DNA of 42,173 bases from a virus. Numbering within the stretch: the stretch's first letter is position 1; every line of letters begins with the position of its first letter. The position numbers were made by a program, and so were the translations under genes. The notes below the pieces were generated by a model, which made no database searches, was not told the origin of the DNA, and worked only from the letters and a program-made list of their open reading frames with translations. Location: positions 1 to 42,173 of the IMG/VR virus record IMGVR_UViG_3300034198_007508; one strand, written 5' to 3'. This document shows, piece after piece, positions 8,265-42,173 of the stretch.

Positions 8265-8432
8265 ATGCCGCAGCATCGCCGCCCGCCCGAAGGGGCACGC
8301 ATCGTCACCATCCAGCTCCCCGACGAGCTGCTCCACCACCTCGATCAGCGTGCCGCCGAACGGACCATCTCCAGAGCCGCCATGATCCGGCAGCTCATCC
8401 TCGACGACCGCGAGGCCAAAGCAGCGGCCTGA
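8265..8432 (+). CDS. Ribbon-helix-helix (CopG-like) protein before the primase
   Basis: A 55-residue protein. RIVTIQLPDELLHHL is the RHH beta strand plus first helix, and AERTISRAAMIRQLI the second helix with the conserved Ser-Arg-Ala start, followed by an acidic/Ala tail. The stop at 8430-8432 lies two bases before the primase ATG, so the two are co-translated. RHH proteins bind DNA as dimers and often repress their own operon; the dyads just upstream are natural targets. A role as replication or early-gene regulator is inferred. Confidence 0.75.
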   Translation: MPQHRRPPEGARIVTIQLPDELLHHLDQRAAERTISRAAMIRQLILDDREAKAAA

Positions 8433-8434
8433 GC

Positions 8435-10954
8435 ATGGCCAGCATCCTTGACGCAGCGGCCGGCCAATGGCCCCGGCTACTGGTGGACCTTGGCGGCCTG
8501 ACAGCTGAGCAGCTCACCGACAAGCACCAGCCTTGCCCGGCCTGCGGCGGGACCGATCGCTACCGCTGGGACAACGACGACGGCCCCGGCGGCGCCTACT
8601 GCAACCAGTGCGGGGGCAAGGACCAGCGCGGCGGTGGCATGTCGGGCGTGGACCTGCTGATGCGGGTCAAGGGCTGGGATCTGAAGCAGGCCTGCGCTTC
8701 TGTCGAGCGGCACCTAGGCCTGGCGGTGGAGCGGCCCGCACCGCCGACAGCAGGAGCTGAGAGCTTCTGGCAGTACAACGCCGACTTCATTGTCTGCCGG
8801 TTCCCGGATCCGGTCAAAGGCAAGAAGGTCCGACCCCTCTGGTGGGACGGCAGCAAGTGGGCATGGAAGTCACCACCGAAGCCACGGCCGCTGTACTGGG
8901 CCAGGCGTGAGGCCGGCGCCCCGGTGCTGATCGCCGAGGGCGAACCCAGCATCGATGCCGGCGCCAAGCTGTTCCCCGCCCACGCCTGCGTCACCTGGCC
9001 CGGCGGCACCCCCAGCGTCGACAAGGCCGACTGGAGCGCCCTGCGCAGCCGTGACGTGGTGCTCTGGCCTGATGCCGATGACGTGGGTCGCAAGGCGATG
9101 GCGCAGCTGGCCCAGATCCTGCTGCAGCTCGGCTGCACCGTGCTGGTGATCAACGTCCCCAGCGGCGCACCGCAGGGCTGGGACCTGGCCGATGCCCTGA
9201 AGGAAGGCTGGACGCCAGCCCAGGCCACGAAGCTCGTCGAGCGGTTTGGCAAGGCGGTGGAGCCGCCGGCAACCGTGCAAACCGTGCAGGCCGAGCCCGC
9301 AACCGTGCAGGGAACCGTGCAAACCGTGCAGGCAGGCGCGGAGCCGCTGCCCGGGGCGCCGTTCACCTGCCTGGGGTTTGATGACGGCGGTTACTTCTAC
9401 CAGCCGAACAACACCGGCCAAGTCGTCAGACTCAGCCGTGCATCCCATACCGCCACCAACCTGCTGCAGCTCGCAGGCCTGGCGTACTGGGAGACGCTCC
9501 ATCCCGCACGGTCCGGCGCCAACTGGCAATCAGCCGCCTCCGCACTCTTCGAGCAGCAGGCCCACGTCGGTATCTACAGCCCCGATCGGATCCGTGGTCG
9601 CGGCGCCTGGTGGGATGACAGCCGACCCGTCCTGCACCTCGGTGATCGGCTCCTCGTAGACGGCACCCTGCACCCCATCACCAAGCAGCCGCCTTCACGC
9701 TTCAACTACCAACGCCTCGCCGCGATCGATCTCCCAACGGACCTGGCGCCGCTCACCGATCAGCAAGGCGCCGAAGTCCTTGACATCGCCTCACGCTTCC
9801 TCTGGGAAGTCCCAGCATCCGGCCTGCTACTCGCCGGCTGGGCGGCCCTGGCACCCATCTGCGGCAGCCTTACCTGGCGGCCACACGTCTGGCTCACCGC
9901 AAGCGCCGGCAGCGGCAAGAGCGCCATCCTCGAACGCTTCCTTGGCACCCTGCTCCAGGACGTTGCCCTATGGCCCGAAGGCAGCACCAGCGAAGCATCC
10001 ATCCGTCAGGAACTTCGCGCTGATGCACTGCCCGTGATCATGGACGAAGCCGAGAGCAACGAGCAGGCCGATCAGAAGCGCATCCAGTCGATCCTCGCGC
10101 TCGCTCGTGTCGCCTCCAGCTCCGGCCGTGGCTTCGTCGGTCGTGGTGGCGCTGATGGCGCTGCACAACGCTTCACGGTGCGGAGCATGTTCCTGCTGTG
10201 CTCCATCTCCACCGCCCTCAAGCAAGGCGCCGACGCATCCCGCTTCGCGCAGCTCACACTCCGCAATCCGAAATTCCTGCCCCAACCCGAACGCGCCGAG
10301 CACTGGGCATCCCTTGACAGGGACATGACCGCCCTGATCACCCCACAGCTCGGCCATCGCCTGCTGCTGCGCTCCGTACGGCTCATCCCGATCATCCGCG
10401 ACAGCGTGGCTGTCTTCCGCCGTGCTGCCGCTGTTCGCTTTGATAGCCAGCGCCAAGGCGATCAGTACGGCACCCTTCTCGCCGGCGCCTGGTCACTCAT
10501 GAACAGCTGTCCGGCCACCGAAGCTGATGCCCTGGCATTGATCGATGCCAACGATTGGGATGCGTACCGCGATGCTGCCGAGCAGCCCGATGAGGAGCGC
10601 TGCCTGCAGCACATCCTTCAGCACCAGCTGCGGGTTGAAGGTGACCGCAACAGCTACACCCGCACCGTCTGGGAGCTGATCGAGCTGGTGCGCACCACCA
10701 CCACCAGCATGGAGATCGGCATCGGCGCCGCTGAAGCCCACCTAGGCCGCCTGGGCCTGCGCGTCATGGATGGCCGCCTGGTCATCGCCAACACGTCCCT
10801 AGGCCTTCAGCGCATCCTTGCCGCCACTGCATGGGCCCACAGCTGGCCCACAGTCCTGTCCCGCCTGCCTGGTGCTGAGAAGCCAGGCAAGGTGCGCTTC
10901 AAGGGAATGGCACACAACAGCCGCGCCGTCGCGGTACCGCTCGACGAAGACTGA
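8435..10954 (+). CDS. Primase-helicase fusion protein
   Basis: An 839-residue protein. Zinc-binding domain: Cys34, 37, 56 and 59 (CPACGGTDRYRW ... CNQCGG), as in P4-type and TOPRIM primases. TOPRIM-like domain: LIAEGEPSIDA with EGEPS at 168-172, then WPDADDVGR with DADD at 213-216. A linker with repeated TVQ follows (about 279-300). The C-terminal half is a DUF927-like ATPase: Walker A ASAGSGKS (489-496) and MDEAE (536-540) for Mg/ATP chemistry. It should synthesise primers and unwind or load at the phage origin. It is the second gene of the rightward block, preceded by an RHH gene and followed by a repeat cluster that may be the origin. Confidence 0.92.
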   Translation: MASILDAAAGQWPRLLVDLGGLTAEQLTDKHQPCPACGGTDRYRWDNDDGPGGAYCNQCGGKDQRGGGMSGVDLLMRVKGWDLKQACASVERHLGLAVERPAPPTAGAESFWQYNADFIVCRFPDPVKGKKVRPLWWDGSKWAWKSPPKPRPLYWARREAGAPVLIAEGEPSIDAGAKLFPAHACVTWPGGTPSVDKADWSALRSRDVVLWPDADDVGRKAMAQLAQILLQLGCTVLVINVPSGAPQGWDLADALKEGWTPAQATKLVERFGKAVEPPATVQTVQAEPATVQGTVQTVQAGAEPLPGAPFTCLGFDDGGYFYQPNNTGQVVRLSRASHTATNLLQLAGLAYWETLHPARSGANWQSAASALFEQQAHVGIYSPDRIRGRGAWWDDSRPVLHLGDRLLVDGTLHPITKQPPSRFNYQRLAAIDLPTDLAPLTDQQGAEVLDIASRFLWEVPASGLLLAGWAALAPICGSLTWRPHVWLTASAGSGKSAILERFLGTLLQDVALWPEGSTSEASIRQELRADALPVIMDEAESNEQADQKRIQSILALARVASSSGRGFVGRGGADGAAQRFTVRSMFLLCSISTALKQGADASRFAQLTLRNPKFLPQPERAEHWASLDRDMTALITPQLGHRLLLRSVRLIPIIRDSVAVFRRAAAVRFDSQRQGDQYGTLLAGAWSLMNSCPATEADALALIDANDWDAYRDAAEQPDEERCLQHILQHQLRVEGDRNSYTRTVWELIELVRTTTTSMEIGIGAAEAHLGRLGLRVMDGRLVIANTSLGLQRILAATAWAHSWPTVLSRLPGAEKPGKVRFKGMAHNSRAVAVPLDED
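9271..9330 (+). repeat. Five AACCGTGCA direct repeats inside the primase gene
   Basis: Nonamers start at 9271, 9280, 9301, 9313 and 9322. They encode the TVQ-rich linker between the TOPRIM-like and ATPase parts. Lambda-type phages keep iterons inside the initiator gene in the same way, so this may be a protein-binding site as well as a linker. It could equally be plain codon-level duplication. Confidence 0.85.
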
Positions 10955-11245
10955 TCCTGTCCCGCCCCGGCAACAGCGGGACAGAAAGCGGGACGGTCAG
11001 AACCCCTGTAAACACTAGGTTTGTCCCGCCGGTCCCGCCTGTCCCGCTTTTTGAAAGGAGACAGGCTTTCACGCGCATGCGCGCCTGCGCGCGTACACGC
11101 GTGCGCGCACGCCTGTGTGAGTGTTCATTTCTCTAGAGAGGGACAAACGGGACAGACACCACCAAACACCAATGGTGGCAAAGGGTTTCGGCTGTCCCGC
11201 CCCCCGGGACAGAGCGGGACGCGGCGGGACGGCAGCGGGACGGGC
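10955..11245. other. Candidate replication origin: cluster of GCGGGAC repeats
   Basis: A non-coding stretch after the primase gene has ten exact copies of GCGGGAC or its complement. In direct orientation they start at 10976, 10988, 11214, 11224 and 11235; inverted at 10959, 11023, 11032, 11041 and 11194. Near copies lie at about 11139, 11147 and 11204. The wider unit is GCGGGACRG. Between the two half-clusters lie a long alternating GC tract, TCTCTAGAGA (11130-11139) and CACCAATGGTG (11167-11177). Dense iterons next to a primase are typical of an origin; a terminase-binding or late control site is the alternative. Confidence 0.65.
11070..11117. other. Alternating purine-pyrimidine tract
   Basis: About 48 bp of nearly unbroken CG/CA/TG alternation with only two phase breaks, between the two halves of the GCGGGAC cluster. 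Such tracts can adopt Z-DNA under negative supercoiling. Nothing in it is coding. Confidence 0.75.
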
Positions 11246-11260
11246 CTGAAAAGCCGCTCC

Positions 11261-11268
11261 TAGCCTGA
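11261..11268 (+). promoter_or_regulatory. TAGCCTGA motif, copy 1
   Basis: CTCCTAGCCTGA ends 4 nt before the ATG at 11273. TAGCCT fits the TANNNT form of a -10 box; with normal spacing transcription would start at or next to the ATG. See copies at 12284, 14666, 16324, 22664, 30656 and 31477. Confidence 0.5.
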
Positions 11269-11272
11269 CTTC

Positions 11273-11482
11273 ATGAAGCGCAGCGCATCCCCCAGCTGGC
11301 TCTTAGACCGCTCCACACCATGGCTCGCCTGGTGGCAGGAGCTGATCCTCAACTGGATCGCCTCATGGCATGCCGTCGGGGCCATCACCGTCGTCTCCGC
11401 CGATGGTGAGGAGTTCTGCGAATGGGAGCTCCCGTCAGACATTGAGCTCGCACGCGCTGAACTGGAGGAGCTGATCCGATGA
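11273..11482 (+). CDS. 69-residue hypothetical protein, first gene after the origin-like cluster
   Basis: MKRSASPSWLLDRSTPWLAWW... It is Trp-rich in the first half (PWLAWWQELILNWIASW), then acidic with DGEEFCEWELPSDIEL. It could be a small tail or packaging accessory, but the family is not recognised. There is no Shine-Dalgarno sequence; a TAGCCTGA motif sits 4 nt before the ATG. Its stop overlaps the ATG of the 11-codon frame at 11479. Confidence 0.6.
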   Translation: MKRSASPSWLLDRSTPWLAWWQELILNWIASWHAVGAITVVSADGEEFCEWELPSDIELARAELEELIR

Positions 11483-11514
11483 ATCACTCCACACCCGCAT
11501 TGGAAGACTGGTAA
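11479..11514 (+). CDS. Possible 11-residue coupled peptide
   Basis: MNHSTPALEDW. Its ATG overlaps the previous stop (ATGA) and its stop overlaps the next ATG (TAATG), so it bridges two genes exactly. It may be a real peptide, or simply a device to carry ribosomes to the next gene. Confidence 0.3.
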   Translation: MNHSTPALEDW

Positions 11515-12255: not shown

Positions 12256-12304
12256 TTGTCACAGCAGCGTGTCACAACCTTTCTAGCCTGTGACACGGTG
12301 ACAA
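12256..12304. promoter_or_regulatory. Nested inverted repeat upstream of the small terminase
   Basis: Outer arms TTGTCAC (12256-12262) and GTGACAA (12298-12304) enclose inner arms GTGTCACA (12269-12276) and TGTGACAC (12289-12296). TAGCCT (12284-12289) sits at the centre. This looks like an operator built around the late motif. A terminase-binding cos subsite is the alternative, since the small terminase gene follows directly. Confidence 0.55.
12284..12291 (+). promoter_or_regulatory. TAGCCTGT motif, copy 2
   Basis: TTTCTAGCCTGT, one base off the consensus, with 25 nt from TAGCCT to the GTG start of the small terminase. It is enclosed by the inverted repeat at 12256-12304. Confidence 0.45.
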
Positions 12305-12314
12305 GCCATCGACG

Positions 12315-12833
12315 GTGCTCATCACAATCAGCGAAGCCGCTGAGATCCTTGGTCTCAAGAGTCGAGGCAGTATCTACCGGAAGATCAACAACGGCGAGCT
12401 GCAAACGACAGCCGGCGCCGATGGGCCAATGTTGGAGCGCGACGGATTGGAGCAGCGCTGGGCCAACATCACCCGCAAGCGATCCGACTCTCCAAGGCCG
12501 AAGACTGCGGCCGCGCCTCAGCCATCACCGCATAGGCCAGCCGAACGCAGTGATGAACCGCCGGACTACAGCGAGAGCCGCGCCCGCTCCGAATACGAGA
12601 AGGCCAACCTGCTGGAGCTGGAGCGCAAGCAGAAGGAAGGCCTGTTGCTGCCACGTGAGGAAGTGGAGCGTGCGCAGGCTGCTGCGGTGGCGATTAGCAA
12701 GACGCGCCTTCTGGGGGTGCCCAGCACCGCAAAGCAGCGCATCCCGCACCTGAGCCTGGATGAGGTTGAGATCTTGACGACGCTGATCCGTGAGGCCCTT
12801 GATGAGCTGGCCGGCTGGGAGGTGGCGGCATGA
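12315..12833 (+). CDS. Terminase small subunit, Nu1-like
   Basis: 172 residues from a GTG start. An N-terminal winged-helix/MerR-like DNA-binding module (ISEAAEILGLKSRGSIYRKINNGEL, about residues 4-28) is followed by a Pro-rich linker and a helical second half with a charged coiled coil (SRARSEYEKANLLELERKQKEGLLL). This is the layout of lambda Nu1, which recognises the packaging site and hands DNA to the large subunit. The 3' end overlaps the large-subunit gene by 4 nt. Confidence 0.88.
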   Translation: MLITISEAAEILGLKSRGSIYRKINNGELQTTAGADGPMLERDGLEQRWANITRKRSDSPRPKTAAAPQPSPHRPAERSDEPPDYSESRARSEYEKANLLELERKQKEGLLLPREEVERAQAAAVAISKTRLLGVPSTAKQRIPHLSLDEVEILTTLIREALDELAGWEVAA

Positions 12834-14668
12834 GCGCCGACGTGCTGACCGCGCAGATCCTGGGCCGCTGGCGCCCGCCGCCGCGGCTAAGCCTGACGGA
12901 ATGGGCCGATACCTATGGCGTGCTCACCGGTGATGCTGCCGAGAAGGGGAAATGGCAGACGCTGCCCTATCAACGCGGAATCATGGATGCCTTCACCGAT
13001 CCGACGGTGGAGACGGTCGTGTGCCTGAAGTCCGCTCGGGTGGGGTGGACGATGATCCTCGGGCATGTGATCGGCTACTACAGCCACCAGGACCCGTGTC
13101 CGGTGATGGTGGTGCAGCCGGTGGTTGAAGACGCGGAGGGCTACAGCAAGGAGCAGATCGCGCCGATGTTTCAGGACACGCCGGTCCTGCGTGGTCTTGT
13201 ATCAGAGGCGAAGGCAAGGAACACCAGCACGAACACGATCCTGCTGAAGCAGCTGGTGAATGGCGGTGTGATCGACATTGTGGGTGCCAATAGCGGCCGG
13301 GCGTTCCGTCGGAAGTCGCGCAGGGTCGTCCTGTTTGATGAGGCCAGCGCCTACCGCGCCATTCCCGAGGGTGACCCGATCAAGCTGGGCCGGAACCGCT
13401 CGGACTACTTCTGGAACCGGAAGATCGGAATCGGATCAACTCCGATCACGAAGGGCTTCGATCGAACCGAGGCGTGGTTCCTGAAGTCCGATCAGCGACG
13501 GTTCTTCGTGCCGTGTCCGTTCTGCCAGCACAGGCAGGTGCTGCGTTGGCCGCAGATGAAATGGCCGCAGGGCAAGCCTGATGAGGCGGCCTATGAGTGC
13601 GAGAACTGCGGGGAGCTGATCCCGCATAGCAAGAAGCGAGCGATGGTCGAGGCCGGCGAGTGGAGGCCAACAGCCACCAGTTCAGAGCCTGGCCTGGTGG
13701 GCTTCCACATCTGGGCGGCTTACAGCTTCAGCCCGAACGCCGAATGGGGAAAGCTGGCCCGCGAGTTCCTTGAGGTGAAGGGCGACCCGGAGCAGCTGCA
13801 AACGTTCGTGAACACGATCCTGGGGGAGACGTGGGAGGACGAGTACACCAACACGATCAGCGCTGAGGGCCTGTCTACCAGGCGCGAGGAGTACCCAGTG
13901 GGCGAGGTGCCGGCCGGCGGATTGGTGCTCACCGGTGGCGTTGACGTTCAGGATGACCGAATCGCGGTTGCGATCTGGGCTTGGGGTCGTGGCGAGGAAG
14001 CGTGGCATGTGTGGGCGCAGGAGATCTGGGGCGACCCATCGCAGCCGGAGCTATGGGAGCAGCTGGATGCTGTGTTGGAGACGCGCTGGCCGCGAGAAGA
14101 TGGCGGTGAAATGCAGGTCTCCCAGCTGGCGGTTGACTCCGGCCACATGACGCATGAGGTCTACGCCTACTGCCGAGCGAGGAAGGCGCAAGGTGTGGTG
14201 CCGATCAAAGGCGCCAGCGTGCGAGGCAAGCCGCCGATCGGGAAGGGCACACCGCAGGACATCAACCGAAAGAACCAGCCAAGGGTGAAGTCGGGCGTGA
14301 TGCTTTACACGGTGGGTCACGACACGATCAAGGCCACGCTGTACGCCAGGCTGCGCCATACCCACCCCGGCCCTGGCTACATCCACCTAGGCCAGGCTGC
14401 GACCGATCAGTTCTTGGAGCAGCTGACGCCATGGAAGATCCAGACCCAGTACATCAAGGGCCAACCAGTGCGTGACTGGGTGAAGGCCAGCAAGGACCGG
14501 GACGAGTTCGGGGATTGCACGGTCTACAGCTATGCAGCGCTGCAGCTGCTGAGCAGGCGCTACAACAAGGCCACCATGTGGGATCAGCTTGAGGCGCAGG
14601 TATCGGCCGGCCCTGGACCGCAGGCGCCGACTATGCAGCGGCGGAAGTCAAGCTGGCTCAATTCCTAG
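12830..14668 (+). CDS. Terminase large subunit, gpA family
   Basis: A 612-residue protein. Walker A-like KSARVGWT (67-74), Walker B VVLFDEA (166-172), the GSTPITKGF coupling motif (202-210), and a zinc-type set Cys229, 232, 257 and 260, characteristic of lambda gpA-type enzymes. The nuclease half has GGVDVQDDRIAV and LAVDSGHMT, supplying the metal-binding Asp residues. It cuts and drives concatemeric DNA into the prohead. This family usually works on cos ends, which fits a genome that closes into a circle. It ends in TCC TAG, the TAG being the first bases of late-motif copy 3. Confidence 0.96.
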   Translation: MSADVLTAQILGRWRPPPRLSLTEWADTYGVLTGDAAEKGKWQTLPYQRGIMDAFTDPTVETVVCLKSARVGWTMILGHVIGYYSHQDPCPVMVVQPVVEDAEGYSKEQIAPMFQDTPVLRGLVSEAKARNTSTNTILLKQLVNGGVIDIVGANSGRAFRRKSRRVVLFDEASAYRAIPEGDPIKLGRNRSDYFWNRKIGIGSTPITKGFDRTEAWFLKSDQRRFFVPCPFCQHRQVLRWPQMKWPQGKPDEAAYECENCGELIPHSKKRAMVEAGEWRPTATSSEPGLVGFHIWAAYSFSPNAEWGKLAREFLEVKGDPEQLQTFVNTILGETWEDEYTNTISAEGLSTRREEYPVGEVPAGGLVLTGGVDVQDDRIAVAIWAWGRGEEAWHVWAQEIWGDPSQPELWEQLDAVLETRWPREDGGEMQVSQLAVDSGHMTHEVYAYCRARKAQGVVPIKGASVRGKPPIGKGTPQDINRKNQPRVKSGVMLYTVGHDTIKATLYARLRHTHPGPGYIHLGQAATDQFLEQLTPWKIQTQYIKGQPVRDWVKASKDRDEFGDCTVYSYAALQLLSRRYNKATMWDQLEAQVSAGPGPQAPTMQRRKSSWLNS

Positions 14669-14673
14669 CCTGA
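14666..14673 (+). promoter_or_regulatory. TAGCCTGA motif, copy 3
   Basis: TTCCTAGCCTGA, 3 nt before the ATG at 14677. The TAG also serves as the stop codon of the large terminase. TAGCCT to ATG spacing is 5 nt. Confidence 0.5.
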
Positions 14674-16323: not shown

Positions 16324-16331
16324 TAGCCTGA
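16324..16331 (+). promoter_or_regulatory. TAGCCTGA motif, copy 4
   Basis: TCCGTAGCCTGA, 3 nt before the ATG of the capsid fusion gene; TAGCCT to ATG spacing 5 nt. It lies in the 15-nt gap after the portal stop codon. Confidence 0.5.
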
Positions 16332-22237: not shown

Positions 22238-22666
22238 ATGACCGCCAGCCGCCGCGAGCAGATCCTGGTTCATATCGCCAACACACTGGCCAGCACCGCT
22301 GGAGTGAACGGCCGTGTCTACCGCTCCAGGGTGGATGCCTTCAGCCGTGATGAAGCGCCGGCCATCGTCATCGAGCCTGGTCAGGACGACGCCCGCACCT
22401 ACAGCACCTGCAAGCTGGACTGGACCCTGAACGTGCTGGTGGTGGTCTACACCAGGGGGCAGATCCCTGATCAGCTGGCGGATCCGATCATCGTTGATGC
22501 CCACAGCAAGCTGATGGCCGATCGCACTTTAGGCGGCCTGGCAATCGACATCATCCCGACCATGACCGACCCGCAACGGGACAAGGCAGATCTCACGTCT
22601 CTATGGCAGGTGAACACCTACCAGGTGCGCTATCGGACATCGGCTGACGATCTGACCAGTCCATAG
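22238..22666 (+). CDS. Minor tail / tail terminator protein, gpU-like
   Basis: 142 residues. The series REQILVHIANTLAS, then VYRSRVDAF with EAPAIVIEPGQD, WTLNVLVVVYTRG and WQVNTYQVRYRT, gives the alpha-beta fold of the lambda gpU / HK97 tail-completion group. It caps the tail tube and joins it to the head. The stop codon TAG belongs to late-motif copy 5. The 56 bp before its ATG has only a 21-codon frame of doubtful value. Confidence 0.75.
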   Translation: MTASRREQILVHIANTLASTAGVNGRVYRSRVDAFSRDEAPAIVIEPGQDDARTYSTCKLDWTLNVLVVVYTRGQIPDQLADPIIVDAHSKLMADRTLGGLAIDIIPTMTDPQRDKADLTSLWQVNTYQVRYRTSADDLTSP

Positions 22667-22671
22667 CCTGA
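22664..22671 (+). promoter_or_regulatory. TAGCCTGA motif, copy 5
   Basis: TCCATAGCCTGA, with 25 nt from TAGCCT to the ATG at 22695. The TAG is the stop of the tail terminator gene. Confidence 0.5.
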
Positions 22672-22694: not shown

Positions 22695-22865
22695 ATGGCG
22701 CGATCTGCTCCAGCAACGCCACCCATCCCCACGGAAGGTGGCACCTATGTGCTGGACGACAAGACCGGCGAACTGGTGTGCGTGCAGCAGACGCAGGACC
22801 CCATGATCCCTACGGAGGACAATGCCTCTCCTGACCCGGAAGCGCCTGCTGCTGGCGAAGTCTGA
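22695..22865 (+). CDS. 56-residue hypothetical protein before the tail tube gene
   Basis: MARSAPATPPIPTEGGTYVLDDKTGELVCVQ... An extended, acidic and Pro-rich protein with one short beta hairpin (TYVLDDKTGELVCV). It ends inside the first 44 bases of the tail tube gene, so it may couple its translation. Small proteins like this can be tail tube chaperones or decorations; that is speculation. Confidence 0.6.
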   Translation: MARSAPATPPIPTEGGTYVLDDKTGELVCVQQTQDPMIPTEDNASPDPEAPAAGEV

Positions 22866-29320: not shown

Positions 29321-30658
29321 ATGGCCACCTTCCCGACCCTCAACCCTTCTAGCCGGGTGTTCTCACCTGGAGAGTATCCGCACACGCCATTCATCGGCAT
29401 GAGCGGCAGGCAGAACAGGGTCAGGAGCAGCAACGTCATGCTCAGCAGCCAGCTACGGCTGACGTTCGTGGCGATCACCGAAGCTCAGATGTTGAGCATC
29501 CTGGCTCATTACCAAGGACAGCAAGGGAGCTTTGCGTCGTTCCTGCTGCCATCCCTGGTGTGGAGTGGCGTCAATGATCTGGCGGATTATCAGCTGGTGG
29601 GATACGGCTGGATCTACAAGGAGCCGCCGCTCGTCACCGATTCAATGTGCGGTGGGTTCTTTGATGTTGAGCTGAGCCTAGAGACGGTGCCGCCAGAAGG
29701 AACGGCCATCCTCGGGCTGGATCAACGCATCAGTGTCATTCTCGTTGCTGGTGGCGCCTACACCGCCGGTGCTGCCAATCTCATCACCACCTGGCGGCTA
29801 CGCGTTGGCGCTGCAGGTGTTGCTGGCATGACGGCCACCATGACATGGACGCTGACGGCCGGAGCACCGACCGGAGCCGTGCTGATGCCAGGTGCGCAAC
29901 TGCATGTGTTTACCAACCTGCAGATTGCCAGGATTGCGGCTTCCGATGGAGTGGCGTTGTCGGAGGCCTATGCGCTGGCGGCCGGAGCAGCGACAAACGG
30001 AATCCAGGATGCATCCTTCTCCAGCGTCTCGCTTCTGCTGCACCTCAACGGCAGCAACACCTCGACCACCTTCACCGACAACAGCTCCAATGCCTTCACG
30101 ATCACCAAGACCGGGCAGGTCACCACCAGCACCACGCAATCCAAGTTCAACGGCAGCTCTGGTTACTTCAACGGTTACAATGGAAATCTTACGCAGGCGC
30201 TGCTGACAGCACCAAACAATTCAGCGCTTGCCTTCGGAACTGGTGGCTTCACCATTGAGGTGTGGCTGTACAAGGTATCCACCAGCGAGGGGACCATCAT
30301 CTCGTCTGGCAGCTTCTCCAGTGCATCAGCTTCGGTCTACATTGACTCCAACCGGAAGATTGTTTTCCAAAACAGCAACCAATACAAGACCTCAACTGAT
30401 GCCATCACGCTGAATCAGTGGACACATATTGCCGTTACCCGCTCAGGCACGACGCTGTACATCTTCATTGATGGCCAGGCATCTGGCAGCTTTACCGTAT
30501 CCGCTAATATGACAGAGCCTGTCCGCTACATCGGTCAGTATTCAACCAGCCAAACGTTCATCATGAATGGCTACATGGCTGATCTACGCGTCACCAAAGG
30601 CGTCGCTCGCTACACCAGCACCTTCACACCGCCGAGTGCTGCTTTCCCTGATTCCTAG
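29321..30658 (+). CDS. Tail protein with C-terminal LamG/concanavalin-like domain
   Basis: 445 residues. The first 125 (MATFPTLNPSSRVFSPGEYP, MLSILAHYQGQQGSFASFLLP, then WIYKEPP) are a paralogue of the entire protein at 31101-31472. A middle beta domain (about 145-230) follows. The last 215 are a LamG-type lectin fold: LLLHLNGSNTSTTFTDNS, GGFTIEVWLY, WTHIAVTRSGTTLYIFIDG and MADLRVTKGVARY are its usual landmarks. It probably binds cell-surface sugars. The stop TAG belongs to late-motif copy 6. Confidence 0.85.
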   Translation: MATFPTLNPSSRVFSPGEYPHTPFIGMSGRQNRVRSSNVMLSSQLRLTFVAITEAQMLSILAHYQGQQGSFASFLLPSLVWSGVNDLADYQLVGYGWIYKEPPLVTDSMCGGFFDVELSLETVPPEGTAILGLDQRISVILVAGGAYTAGAANLITTWRLRVGAAGVAGMTATMTWTLTAGAPTGAVLMPGAQLHVFTNLQIARIAASDGVALSEAYALAAGAATNGIQDASFSSVSLLLHLNGSNTSTTFTDNSSNAFTITKTGQVTTSTTQSKFNGSSGYFNGYNGNLTQALLTAPNNSALAFGTGGFTIEVWLYKVSTSEGTIISSGSFSSASASVYIDSNRKIVFQNSNQYKTSTDAITLNQWTHIAVTRSGTTLYIFIDGQASGSFTVSANMTEPVRYIGQYSTSQTFIMNGYMADLRVTKGVARYTSTFTPPSAAFPDS

Positions 30659-30663
30659 CCTGA
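30656..30663 (+). promoter_or_regulatory. TAGCCTGA motif, copy 6
   Basis: TTCCTAGCCTGA at the stop of the LamG gene, with 23 nt from TAGCCT to the ATG at 30685. Confidence 0.5.
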
Positions 30664-30684: not shown

Positions 30685-31101
30685 ATGGCTAGTTTCATCT
30701 ACACCAGCGCACTGGAAGACGAGGCGCGTGGTGCGATCGACTTTGATACCGATACCTTCAAGATGGTGCTGCTCACCAGCAGCTACACCGGCAACCAGGG
30801 TACGCACACCAAGCGCAGCGACCTGACCAACGAAGTGACCGGCACCGGCTACACCGCTGGTGGTGTGACGGTTGCGGTGACGGTTGCCAAGGACACCACA
30901 AACAAGAAAGTGACCCTGACCTTTGCTGCAGGTAACTGGGCCAGCAGCACGATCACGGCCCGTTACGCAGCGGTCTACAAGTCACGCGGTGGTGCATCCA
31001 GCGCCGATGAGCTGGTGTTCCTCAACGACTTCGGCGGTGATGTGGTGAGCACCTCCAGCACGTTCGCCGTGGCGGCCAGCACGATCACGAAGCAGCTCTA
31101 A
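30685..31101 (+). CDS. Small virion protein, beta-rich
   Basis: 138 residues from the ATG at 30685; a TTG two codons upstream is also in frame. MASFIYTSALEDEARGAIDFDTDTFKMVLLTSSY, then VTVAKDTTNKKVTLTFAAGNWA and ADELVFLNDFGGDVV, is a recurring domain in phage structural clusters and may be a tail-fibre base or capsid-edge protein. Its stop overlaps the next ATG. Confidence 0.7.
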   Translation: MASFIYTSALEDEARGAIDFDTDTFKMVLLTSSYTGNQGTHTKRSDLTNEVTGTGYTAGGVTVAVTVAKDTTNKKVTLTFAAGNWASSTITARYAAVYKSRGGASSADELVFLNDFGGDVVSTSSTFAVAASTITKQL

Positions 31102-31476: not shown

Positions 31477-31484
31477 TAGCCTGA
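31477..31484 (+). promoter_or_regulatory. TAGCCTGA motif, copy 7
   Basis: TTCCTAGCCTGA, 4 nt after the stop of the preceding gene, with 26 nt from TAGCCT to the ATG at 31509. It would open the lysis gene group. Confidence 0.5.
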
Positions 31485-31508: not shown

Positions 31509-31910
31509 ATGCAAGCCATGAGCGATCAAGACAGCTCAATGATCGCCGTGGTTGATCGTCTCGGCAAACTCGAAGGCCTGATCATGGGCCTGCAATCCAG
31601 CATCTCGCAGGGTCAGACGACAGCCGCTGCGTTCATGTCGCGGGTGGAGCGACTGGAGCAACGGCAGGTGGAGCTGGAACGCAACATGGTCACCACCACC
31701 CACATCGCAGCGCTGACCGAGAAGGTGGATTCATTGGTCGCCAGTGATGCCGTCCGCAGGGGCGGCACTGCTACCGCCACATGGACCGCTGGTCAGCTGG
31801 TGGCCTGGGTGGCGGTGATCATCTCGTTGCTGGCCTTGGTGGGTGTCGGCATGAACCGCGAGGCATTGCATGAGCAGCCTTCCTCATCACCGCAGCAGCG
31901 CCAACCATGA
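31509..31910 (+). CDS. Coiled-coil membrane protein, holin/lysis candidate
   Basis: 133 residues (130 from the ATG at 31518). Residues 15-80 are a coiled coil with SRVERLEQRQVELERNM and ALTEKVDSLV. One transmembrane segment follows near 95-115 (LVAWVAVIISLLALVGVG), and a short hydrophilic tail rich in Gln and Ser. This plan resembles small phage membrane proteins encoded directly before the endolysin, such as holins with a soluble N-terminus. Position supports a lysis role; no family is recognised with certainty. Confidence 0.6.
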   Translation: MQAMSDQDSSMIAVVDRLGKLEGLIMGLQSSISQGQTTAAAFMSRVERLEQRQVELERNMVTTTHIAALTEKVDSLVASDAVRRGGTATATWTAGQLVAWVAVIISLLALVGVGMNREALHEQPSSSPQQRQP

Positions 31911-33100: not shown

Positions 33101-33346
33101 ATGGAAGGGCATTGGTTGCTCCTTGAGCAGTCTGCAGAGACGGAGTTCACCCGCGAATGTGTGTTCCGCCGGTTGCGGGCCATAAACCAGGATCAGCTGC
33201 TGGAGGTTGCTGAACAGCTGGCGGAGAACCTGATCAGTTACGGCATCATCATCCGGCAAGCGGCAGCGCATATTGCTCACATCGAGGCTGAGCAGATGCT
33301 CGCCGGCGCCGGCCCCTTCCCGCCACTCGCCGATTGGCACCACTAG
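33101..33346 (+). CDS. Short helical protein, possibly NblA-like
   Basis: 81 residues. ETEFTRECVFRRLRAINQDQLLEVAEQLAENLI then IRQAAAHIAHIEAEQ gives two amphipathic helices of the spacing seen in cyanobacterial NblA and related small proteins (F-x-R start, a central Q-x-L helix, then a second helix). Key NblA residues are not all present, so this is a resemblance only. AAGG lies about 7 nt before the ATG. Its 3' end overlaps the sigma gene. Confidence 0.55.
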   Translation: MEGHWLLLEQSAETEFTRECVFRRLRAINQDQLLEVAEQLAENLISYGIIIRQAAAHIAHIEAEQMLAGAGPFPPLADWHH

Positions 33347-34259
33347 GCGGCGCGTGATCTGCTGGGACGATCGGCAAGCTGATCTGCGGCCCATAGCTCA
33401 CCGGTTCAGATGGCGATGGCTGCAGCGGCGGCGGAGTGCCGCGCAGGATCATCCGCAGCTGGTTGAGCGACTGACTGATGATCGCCCGCAACTGCTCTCG
33501 ACTGATCCCCTCCTGCCGTGCCAGCTGCTGCTGAGTGCTGGGCACCGGCGACAGGAACTGATCCAGCATGATCCGCTCGGCCCGTGGGGTCAGCAGCCGG
33601 AGTGCACCCATCAGCTGCTCAAGCTGATCGGCACCTTCCACCAAGTCCAGCAGGGCAGGACCTGGATCAGCAATCGCCTCCGCCACGGTGCCGCCATCAT
33701 CCCGGCTCATGTTGGGTGCATCCAGGCTCACGGTCGCTGATGGCCTGGTGATCACCCGCTCGATCGTCTCCAGCGTCCAGCCGGTAGCAGCGGCGATCTC
33801 CTGGCGGCTGGGGTGCCGGTTCAACCGCTCGGAGAGCTCCAGGATGGTGGTCTGCAGCTTGGTGTACTGCGCGGCGTGTGTGGTCGGCAGGCGGATCGAG
33901 CGGCCGTAATGTTCCAGGAAGCTGTGGATGCCCTGGCGGATCCACCAGTAGGCATATGTACTGAACTTGTATCCACGGGTCGGGTCGAACTTCTCGACCC
34001 CGCGCATGAGGCCAAGGTTCCCGGCCTGGATCAGGTCGTCGGCGTACTGGGTCGGCACGCTGCGGTACTTATCGGCCATGTTGATCACAAGCCGCAGGTT
34101 GGCCCGCACGAAGCGGTCCCTCGCTCGCTGGCCACGACGCACGACGGCAGGTGGCGGGTCGGGATGATCCAGCCATTCACGCACCTGCTGCCCCAGCAGA
34201 ATCTCCTGGCTTGGGGAGAGGAGGGGGAAACGCCCGGCCTGGTCGTGCCACCAGGTCAT
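33249..34259 (-). CDS. Phage-encoded sigma-70 family factor
   Basis: 336 residues. Region 1.2: FPLLSPSQEILLGQQV (11-26). Region 2: FVRANLRLVINMADKY (50-65), DLIQAGNLGLMRGVEKFDP (75-93) and YKFSTYAYWWIRQGI (97-111), close to cyanobacterial sigma factors. Region 3: RHPSRQEIAAATGWTLETIERVI (148-170). Region 4: LLTPRAERIMLDQFLS and QQLARQEGISREQLRAIISQSLNQL (222-268) keeps the helix-turn-helix but differs from the usual ERIRQIE pattern. A Pro- and then Arg-rich C-terminal tail of about 60 residues is extra. It would redirect host RNA polymerase to phage promoters. No Shine-Dalgarno sequence is visible. Confidence 0.92.
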   Translation of the reverse strand: MTWWHDQAGRFPLLSPSQEILLGQQVREWLDHPDPPPAVVRRGQRARDRFVRANLRLVINMADKYRSVPTQYADDLIQAGNLGLMRGVEKFDPTRGYKFSTYAYWWIRQGIHSFLEHYGRSIRLPTTHAAQYTKLQTTILELSERLNRHPSRQEIAAATGWTLETIERVITRPSATVSLDAPNMSRDDGGTVAEAIADPGPALLDLVEGADQLEQLMGALRLLTPRAERIMLDQFLSPVPSTQQQLARQEGISREQLRAIISQSLNQLRMILRGTPPPLQPSPSEPVSYGPQISLPIVPADHAPPSGANRRVAGRGRRRRASAQPRCEQYALPLAG

Positions 34260-42008: not shown

Positions 42009-42173
42009 GGCTGGATCTCCAGTTGAATTGAGTTGGTAGCCACAGCTGAACGCCTCCTGCTGCGATGCGGCGAACAAGTCGCGATGCCATCGCCATAGCC
42101 ATAGCCATAGCCACTGCCATAGCCATAGCCATAGCCATAGCCATCGCCATAGCCATAGCCATAGCCATCGCCA
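41950..42173 (-). CDS. Met-Ala repeat frame from the hexamer array (continues at 1-137)
   Basis: In the closed circle the frame starts at the ATG of 137, runs leftward across the junction and stops at 41950, about 104 codons: roughly 30 Met-Ala (some Val-Ala) dipeptides, then a tail overlapping the next gene in another frame. No Shine-Dalgarno sequence is seen and a TAG lies two codons upstream of the first ATG. The tail reads as shadow of the PAAQAVLDA gene. I think the array is more likely a DNA-level feature than a protein, but it lies in a transcribed operon. Confidence 0.2.
   Translation of the reverse strand, partial: AMAMAMAMAMAMAMAMAMAVAMAMAMAMASRLVRRIAAGGVQLWLPTQFNWRSSHDHPSPCRAGSAGCRNQGC
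42086..42173. repeat. Hexanucleotide array GCCATN (right part) and right terminal repeat
   Basis: Fourteen units and a partial one; bases 42128-42173 equal 1-46. The rest (42086-42127) is unique and adds seven units to the array in the closed molecule. Confidence 0.95.

Follow-up and report, generated by a model that had tools for sequence, protein, structure and literature searches.

The late genes of the virus contig analysed here are preceded by a short recurring element, TAGCCTGA, that, judging from sequence comparison, very likely serves as the -10 element in a class of late promoters. These promoters are probably read by a sigma factor encoded by the phage itself. More tentatively, this protein may be a one-piece late sigma of small cyanobacterial siphoviruses, one that recognises promoters with only a -10 and whose activator is the host beta clamp, contacted via a C-terminal motif.

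The whole analysed stretch of 42,173 nucleotides (42 kb; hereafter, the window) is a virus contig that belongs with the small cyanobacterial siphoviruses of which Synechococcus phage S-LBS1 (MG271909; PMC6157547) is the typical member. Its TerL is 59% identical to that of S-LBS1 and about 39-40% identical to those of S-CBS3 and S-CBS1; for the sigma factors of the window and S-LBS1, the identity is about 37%. The rightward late genes, from about 11.3 to 32.9 kb, encode terminase, adaptor, portal, capsid/protease, tail, and peptidase proteins, and the sigma gene on the minus strand closes the late module, as it does in S-LBS1 and in the S-CBS genomes. S-LBS1 shares the late gene order as well, and has TAGCCTG sites at orthologous junctions. 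Capsid-protein searches for prophages in picocyanobacterial genomes gave 0/6 and 3/300 weak matches, and a scan with the tail protein gave none.

Recurrence of the motif in the window

The exact octamer TAGCCTGA occurs six times on the plus strand (11261, 14666, 16324, 22664, 30656, and 31477) and never on the minus strand. The overlapping TAGCCTG occurs seven times on the plus strand, adding the site at 12284 with its GT end, versus a single minus-strand copy (28114) located within a gene. The number of octamers expected on the plus strand is 0.34 under a Markov-1 model, 0.46 after mononucleotide shuffling, and 0.47 under a Markov-3 model, with a simulation maximum of 3. The count against a mononucleotide-matched genome had been set beforehand as a test, and the observed number is well above both the mononucleotide and the Markov expectation.

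The initial annotation had described seven near-identical copies of a longer motif on the rightward strand before late genes or gene groups. The recurrence is real, with a strand ratio of 6:0 for the octamer, and the description holds for the core octamer or TAGCCTG; it does not hold for the long form TCCTAGCCTGA, which is exact at four sites only, the remaining three having two mismatches. Since the 11-mer with two mismatches allowed was found 14 times versus 9.8 expected, and is thus not above chance, we rejected it and assigned the signal to the core octamer. The repeated CCTAACCT of S-LBS1, considered as a related motif, was also rejected, as it is a repeat cluster at the genome end of that phage.

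Conservation of the putative -10 element and predicted leaderless starts

TANNNT is the usual form of the cyanobacterial -10 element. Contigs of relatives were gathered with TerL, capsid, sigma, and tail-protein queries and compared at orthologous junctions. The distribution of TAGCCTGA between the late and the other strand is 60:2 in the contigs collected by TerL or MCP, 20:1 in the contigs with this sigma type, and 51:4 in the S-LBS1-like contigs. For individual genes, the ATG served as anchor for aligning the upstream sequences, of which independent lineages were kept; their proteins are as little as 41-43% identical to those of the window. TANNNT is found 5-7 nt 5' of the major-capsid ATG in 19/19 nonredundant lineages and 5-7 nt 5' of the head-tail adaptor (Hta1) ATG in 19/21, compared with a mean of about 0.5 and a maximum of 4 in shuffled upstream regions; hexamer positions 1, 2, and 6 are fixed by the search pattern, and the non-chance part is the occurrence at one spacing. 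The other hexamers seen at this place in relatives are TAAGAT, TAATAT, TAACCT, TAGGCT, TAGTCT, TAGACT, TAGAGT, TAGGTT, TAAGTT, and TATGTT. At orthologous junctions T1, A2, and T6 are conserved and the other positions are freer, as in bacterial -10 elements. The same pattern follows the tail terminator gene, in most of the related genomes compared, and the tail gene homologous to S-LBS1 A24.

The spacer between the hexamer and the ATG is 6 nt in 13/19 lineages for the capsid gene, and 5 nt in 10 and 6 nt in 8 of the 21 lineages for the adaptor gene. With the spacer peaking at 5-6 nt, a normal transcription start would fall on the A of the ATG. As an internal control, none of 48 decoration, portal, and TerL starts has TANNNT at that spacing (0/48). 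A Shine-Dalgarno-like sequence precedes 44 of these 48 starts, versus 3/19 for the capsid and 2/21 for the adaptor; because these two genes mostly lack the ribosome-binding sequence that their neighbours have, their promoters should make leaderless mRNAs. The comparison of relatives therefore gives strong support to the initial suggestion of a late promoter class specific to the phage, with leaderless starts among its members. Leaderless transcripts are rare yet present in cyanobacteria: of the 2475 gene start sites in S. elongatus UTEX 2973, 19 were classed as leaderless (PMC6091082). S-CBS3 and S-CBS1 (L100 and L101) have Shine-Dalgarno leaders (GGAGGTG) and GTG starts at the TerL/adaptor junction, and not the leaderless layout.

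In 64 nonredundant sites, the -35 region holds no information. The clearest position outside the core is a T at -16, present in 45/64 sites; A(-17) and C(-15) are weakly preferred in the same set, which also shows an A after the G. The motif is best written as T(-16)-YCN-TAGCCTGA.

Individual predicted late promoter sites

The seven predicted -10 elements, all on the plus strand, fall into the two distance classes that had been reported. Three belong to the leaderless class. The first (TAGCCTGA, 11261..11268) lies 6 nt 5' of the ATG at 11273 and is followed by the ORF 11273-11482 and a neck protein gene at 11514; this site is weakly conserved in relatives, and one of them (L002) has TACCCTGA farther upstream. 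The second (TAGCCTGA, 14666..14673) is 5 nt 5' of the head-tail adaptor ATG (14677), and its TAG doubles as the TerL stop codon. The third (TAGCCTGA, 16324..16331) is 5 nt 5' of the ATG of the major capsid/protease gene (16335).

The other four are more distant from the start. The variant TAGCCTGT (12284..12291) lies 25 nt 5' of the terminase small subunit gene (TerS, GTG at 12315); the TerS upstream regions contain TAGCCTGTGACA in L001, L002, L004, L005, and L104, and TAGCTT or TAGCAT in L010 and L015. Nested inverted repeats TGTCAC/GTGACA (12257..12306), partly conserved in close relatives, flank this element with four half-sites and are a possible repressor operator or terminase (cos) binding site. 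Another element (TAGCCTGA, 22664..22671) follows the tail terminator gene, the stop codon of which is formed by its TAG, and lies 25 nt 5' of a small ORF starting at 22695. A gene follows the motif at each site, as had been stated, but the one meant here is this 56-aa ORF (MARSAPATPPIPTEGGTYVLDD..., 22695..22865, plus strand), and not the larger ORF at 22822. It was missed by the ORF list with its 60-aa limit, and is conserved in G304, G305, G327, G331, and S-CBS3. The remaining two elements share the context CTGATTCC: one (TAGCCTGA, 30656..30663) is 23 nt 5' of the ATG at 30685, its TAG being the stop codon of the upstream tail gene, and the other (TAGCCTGA, 31477..31484) is 26 nt 5' of the ATG at 31509. 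The stop-codon overlap at 14666, 22664, and 30656 is not kept in relatives; when the junction is shifted in them, the motif keeps its distance to the next gene.

The phage sigma factor and its C-terminal tail

The gene at 33249..34259 on the minus strand encodes a sigma-70 family factor of 336 aa with intact regions 2 and 3, a diverged region 4, and a disordered tail (residues 278-336). Its annotation as a sigma gene is confirmed by Pfam (Sigma70_r2, 66.9 bits; r3, 35.6 bits; r4, 19.9 bits, below the cut-off of 24.1). Region 2 (33912..34112, minus strand; residues 50-116; PF04542 and alignment) includes YAYWWIRQ, the segment for melting and reading the -10 element. The region 4.2 helix (33444..33500, minus strand; residues 254-272; REQLRAIISQSL...) departs from the host RERVRQLEAKAI and differs from the host SRERVRQ, in line with the initially reported departure of region 4. 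The recognition helix, SRERVRQLEAKAI in host sigmas of the same type, reads SREQLRAIISQSL in the window and is lost in most of the clade (STRALESRLERLQ and similar); the S-CBS1 and S-CBS3 sigmas keep it. An AlphaFold model built on a 26-sequence alignment has most of residues 1-277 folded, including the region 4 helices, and residues 278-336 disordered. With a folded region 4 in the model, the protein may still make some -35 contact. Foldseek matched the model to SigA and SigS structures with E-values down to 1.9e-15.

The initial annotation had overlooked the tail, which carries motifs resembling those that bind the beta clamp. In the window these are QISLPI (33369..33386, minus strand; residues 292-297), at the conserved QLxL position, and, from its sequence, a second candidate QYALPL at the C-terminus (33258..33275, minus strand; residues 329-334). 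Bacterial beta-clamp partners have a C-terminal QL(S/D)LF consensus (PMC9690074), and motifs of this kind stand near the C-terminus both in relatives (QLSLF, QLALF, and QLALPL) and in the window. Q292 is invariant in 26/26 sigmas and is the sole invariant position after residue 247; L293 and L295 are conserved in at least 90%. The motif, usually at the very end of the protein, is QISLPI in the window, QLALF in the nearest relative, and QLSLF-AA, QLALPL-V, QLTLLAIA, or QLVLAVA in others; the S-LBS1 sigma ends in QLVLVEAP, and one tail (L020) has QPTLPL instead of QLxL. Eight of nine lineages (<75% core identity) have QLxL tails, versus 0.43 in shuffled tails, and four of the nine have a strict canonical clamp motif, versus 0.02 expected. 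Among all phage sigmas, including those of T4-like and other large phages, QLxL within the last 14 residues is found in 8/39 versus 1.34 expected; the signal belongs to the S-LBS1-like clade. A search with model PF02768 found no bacterial-type clamp gene in eight of these phages, whereas both hosts matched (DnaN).

Three related genomes (G304, G305, and G327; L257, L258, L260, and L261) encode two tandem sigmas each. According to the G304 and G305 sequences, one sigma of the pair has a QLSLF tail and an eroded region 4, and the other has an intact SRERIRQ and no such tail. The two could possibly serve two temporal classes.

Association of the motif with the sigma type

In genomes with a QLxL-tailed sigma, the ratio of TAGCCTGA on the late and the other strand is 6:0 (window), 5:0 (G305), 4:0 (G304), 3:1 (G301), 2:0 (G306), 3:1 (G316), and 2:0 (G327). 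In genomes without it, the ratio is 0:0 in S-CBS1, S-CBS3, G328, G335, and G302, 1:0 in G303, and 0:1 in G323. The first four of these have a sigma with intact region 4, and no sigma was detected in G302, G303, or G323; the TAGCCTGA excess is absent in both groups. Equal presence of the motif in relatives lacking the sigma, which would have spoken against the pairing, was thus not found. Exceptions are G322 (1:2), G331 (1:0), and G325 (0:2), which have QLxL or related sigmas, and TAGGTT, TAGCTT, TAGGCT, or TAGAGT at the same junctions. The pairing of sigma and motif claimed at the outset stands as an association: sigma type tracks motif strength, the erosion of region 4 goes together with the lack of a -35, and the motif is not one used by the host. 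Phylogeny confounds this association, and the contigs may be incomplete.

In G303, the capsid of which is 73% identical, no sigma was found in a contig that extends beyond lysozyme, and TAAGAT or TAATAT replaces TAGCCT at the junctions. This apparently sigma-less genome retains the leaderless -10 layout, which therefore does not depend on the phage sigma. Low GC alone is no explanation for G303, because L014, L015, and L126, with 52-54% GC, keep TAGCCTGA.

The octamer was also counted in six picocyanobacterial genomes (18.7 Mb), which may not include the phage's own host. Promoter modelling from crude host gene calls gave too weak a signal, and genome-wide counts were used instead. There are 105 copies of TAGCCTGA versus 271 of the reversed control, and this scarcity indicates that the octamer is not a favoured host promoter. 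In the same six genomes, TNNNTAGCCTGANNNATG and TAGCCTGANNCATGG are absent and no copy of TAGCCTGA has the leaderless layout.

Proposed mechanism and alternative explanations

The proposed late promoter would consist of approximately T(-16), YCN, TAGCCT (-12 to -7), and GA, with no -35 element. Initiation would take place about 7 nt 3' of the -10 element, making the A of the ATG the first RNA base for the capsid and head-tail adaptor genes; in the other promoter class, it would lie 16-20 nt upstream of the start codon. The phage sigma, bound to the host RNA polymerase core, would most likely use its region 2 to open these promoters, with region 4 probably unable to read a -35 any more. The QLxL(F/P/L) motif of the flexible tail may well hook the host beta sliding clamp, and with the tail on the clamp, late transcription would start on replicating phage DNA. 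On the simplest account, the sigma would recognise a -10 alone and make up for this by being tethered to the replication clamp, as its T4 counterpart is.

It seems unlikely, although the notion has substance, that these sites are late promoters read by a host primary or group-2 sigma, with the phage sigma serving other genes or competing for core. The host-type -10 is also TANNNT, host upstream regions contain TAGGCT, TAGGAT, and TAGCGT, and G303 keeps its -10-only leaderless sites with no sigma detected. Yet TAGCCTGA is under-represented in the six host genomes, the stereotyped octamer with T(-16) exceeds host use, and the excess of TAGCCTGA goes with the QLxL-tailed sigma and is not seen in the seven genomes listed above as lacking it. 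That the motif is no promoter but a translation or RNA-level signal, such as a start context, a termination-reinitiation element, or a regulatory RNA site, is highly improbable: its position 5-7 nt before the ATG of several genes and the use of its TAG as the upstream stop at three sites would fit, but four of the seven sites are separated from the start by 23-26 nt, relatives do not share the stop-codon overlap, substitutions follow TANNNT, and Rfam at gathering thresholds has no family match.

Whether the clamp is what the tail binds is a separate question. Too much can easily be read into motifs as short as QLxL, and we take seriously, while doubting it, the possibility that the tail forms a structural strand or serves to bind a different partner. 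In its favour, the S-LBS1 subclade has a second QLVLV directly after region 4, and the ending of some motifs is AVA or VEA where the canonical one would be F or PL. However, the best cases (QLSLF, QLALF, and QLALPL) are canonical and follow a disordered linker, at the C-terminus or close to it, the rest of the tail is not conserved, and among 24 window proteins checked the sole further match to the clamp pattern is inside the recombinase.

Comparison with known systems

The T4 late promoter consists of a -10 element only. It is served by gp55, which resembles sigma factors in region 2 only and has a flexible tail with a C-terminal clamp epitope (PMC2988020, PMC7892883). The gp55-gp33-gp45 system resembles the one proposed here in having a phage late sigma with a flexible tail that ends in a clamp-binding motif, which in the window is clamp-binding-like by its sequence. 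In T4, gp55 works with gp33 and a phage clamp, whereas in the window a single protein combines regions 2 and 3 with a diverged region 4, and no bacterial-type phage clamp was found in the genomes searched. Sigma homology is also not confined to region 2, as regions 2-4 are folded in the model. In our best reading, the window sigma would work like T4 gp55-gp45, yet would not be a member of that family.

Phages phiEco32 and 7-11 likewise encode a sigma for which a phage-specific promoter class was deduced from the genome sequence; they belong to a different phage group, and the available excerpts of their description mention no clamp-like tail or leaderless capsid start (PMC4331800). The group-2 sigmas of S-CBS1/S-CBS3 and P-SS2 are also cyanosiphovirus sigma factors, and the S-CBS genomes are syntenic; the S-CBS sigmas differ in keeping SREAIRQ/SRERIRQ and having no QLxL tail, in genomes without TAGCCTGA. 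The S-LBS1 paper reports the run of a generic promoter predictor and mentions the sigma for its sequence divergence, and a text search of it turned up no late promoter class or clamp motif (PMC6157547). A review on T4 raises the question of why a fused late-transcription sigma is not known, and text searches, with most subscription journals outside their scope, found no such sigma reported beyond T4-like phages.

If the proposed mechanism is true, clamp-coupled late transcription, hitherto described from T4-like phages, arose on at least two occasions, here with the clamp of the host and one sigma protein. Virus particle production would be tied to viral DNA copying, as in T4, by different parts, and the open question of the T4 field would be directly testable with the cultured phage S-LBS1. 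The results would also provide a promoter code for freshwater cyanophages of a group that has received little study, and predict a leaderless mRNA for their major capsid protein.

Other features of the window

Arrays of (GCCATA)n are found at both contig ends, at 1-141 (about 23 copies) and 42086-42173 (about 15 copies), which suggests one circular or permuted genome broken within the six-base repeat. GGGAC/GTCCC words, 67 in the entire window, cluster directly 3' of the primase gene (10950-11250; 13 in 320 bp) and are possible replication-origin iterons. In S-LBS1, the corresponding post-primase location is taken by another repeat cluster (CCTAACCT, L099 34275-34600). Between the divergent helicase and primase genes, a small ORF (8265-8432; MPQHRRPPEGARIVTIQLPDELLHHL...) resembles a ribbon-helix-helix regulator.
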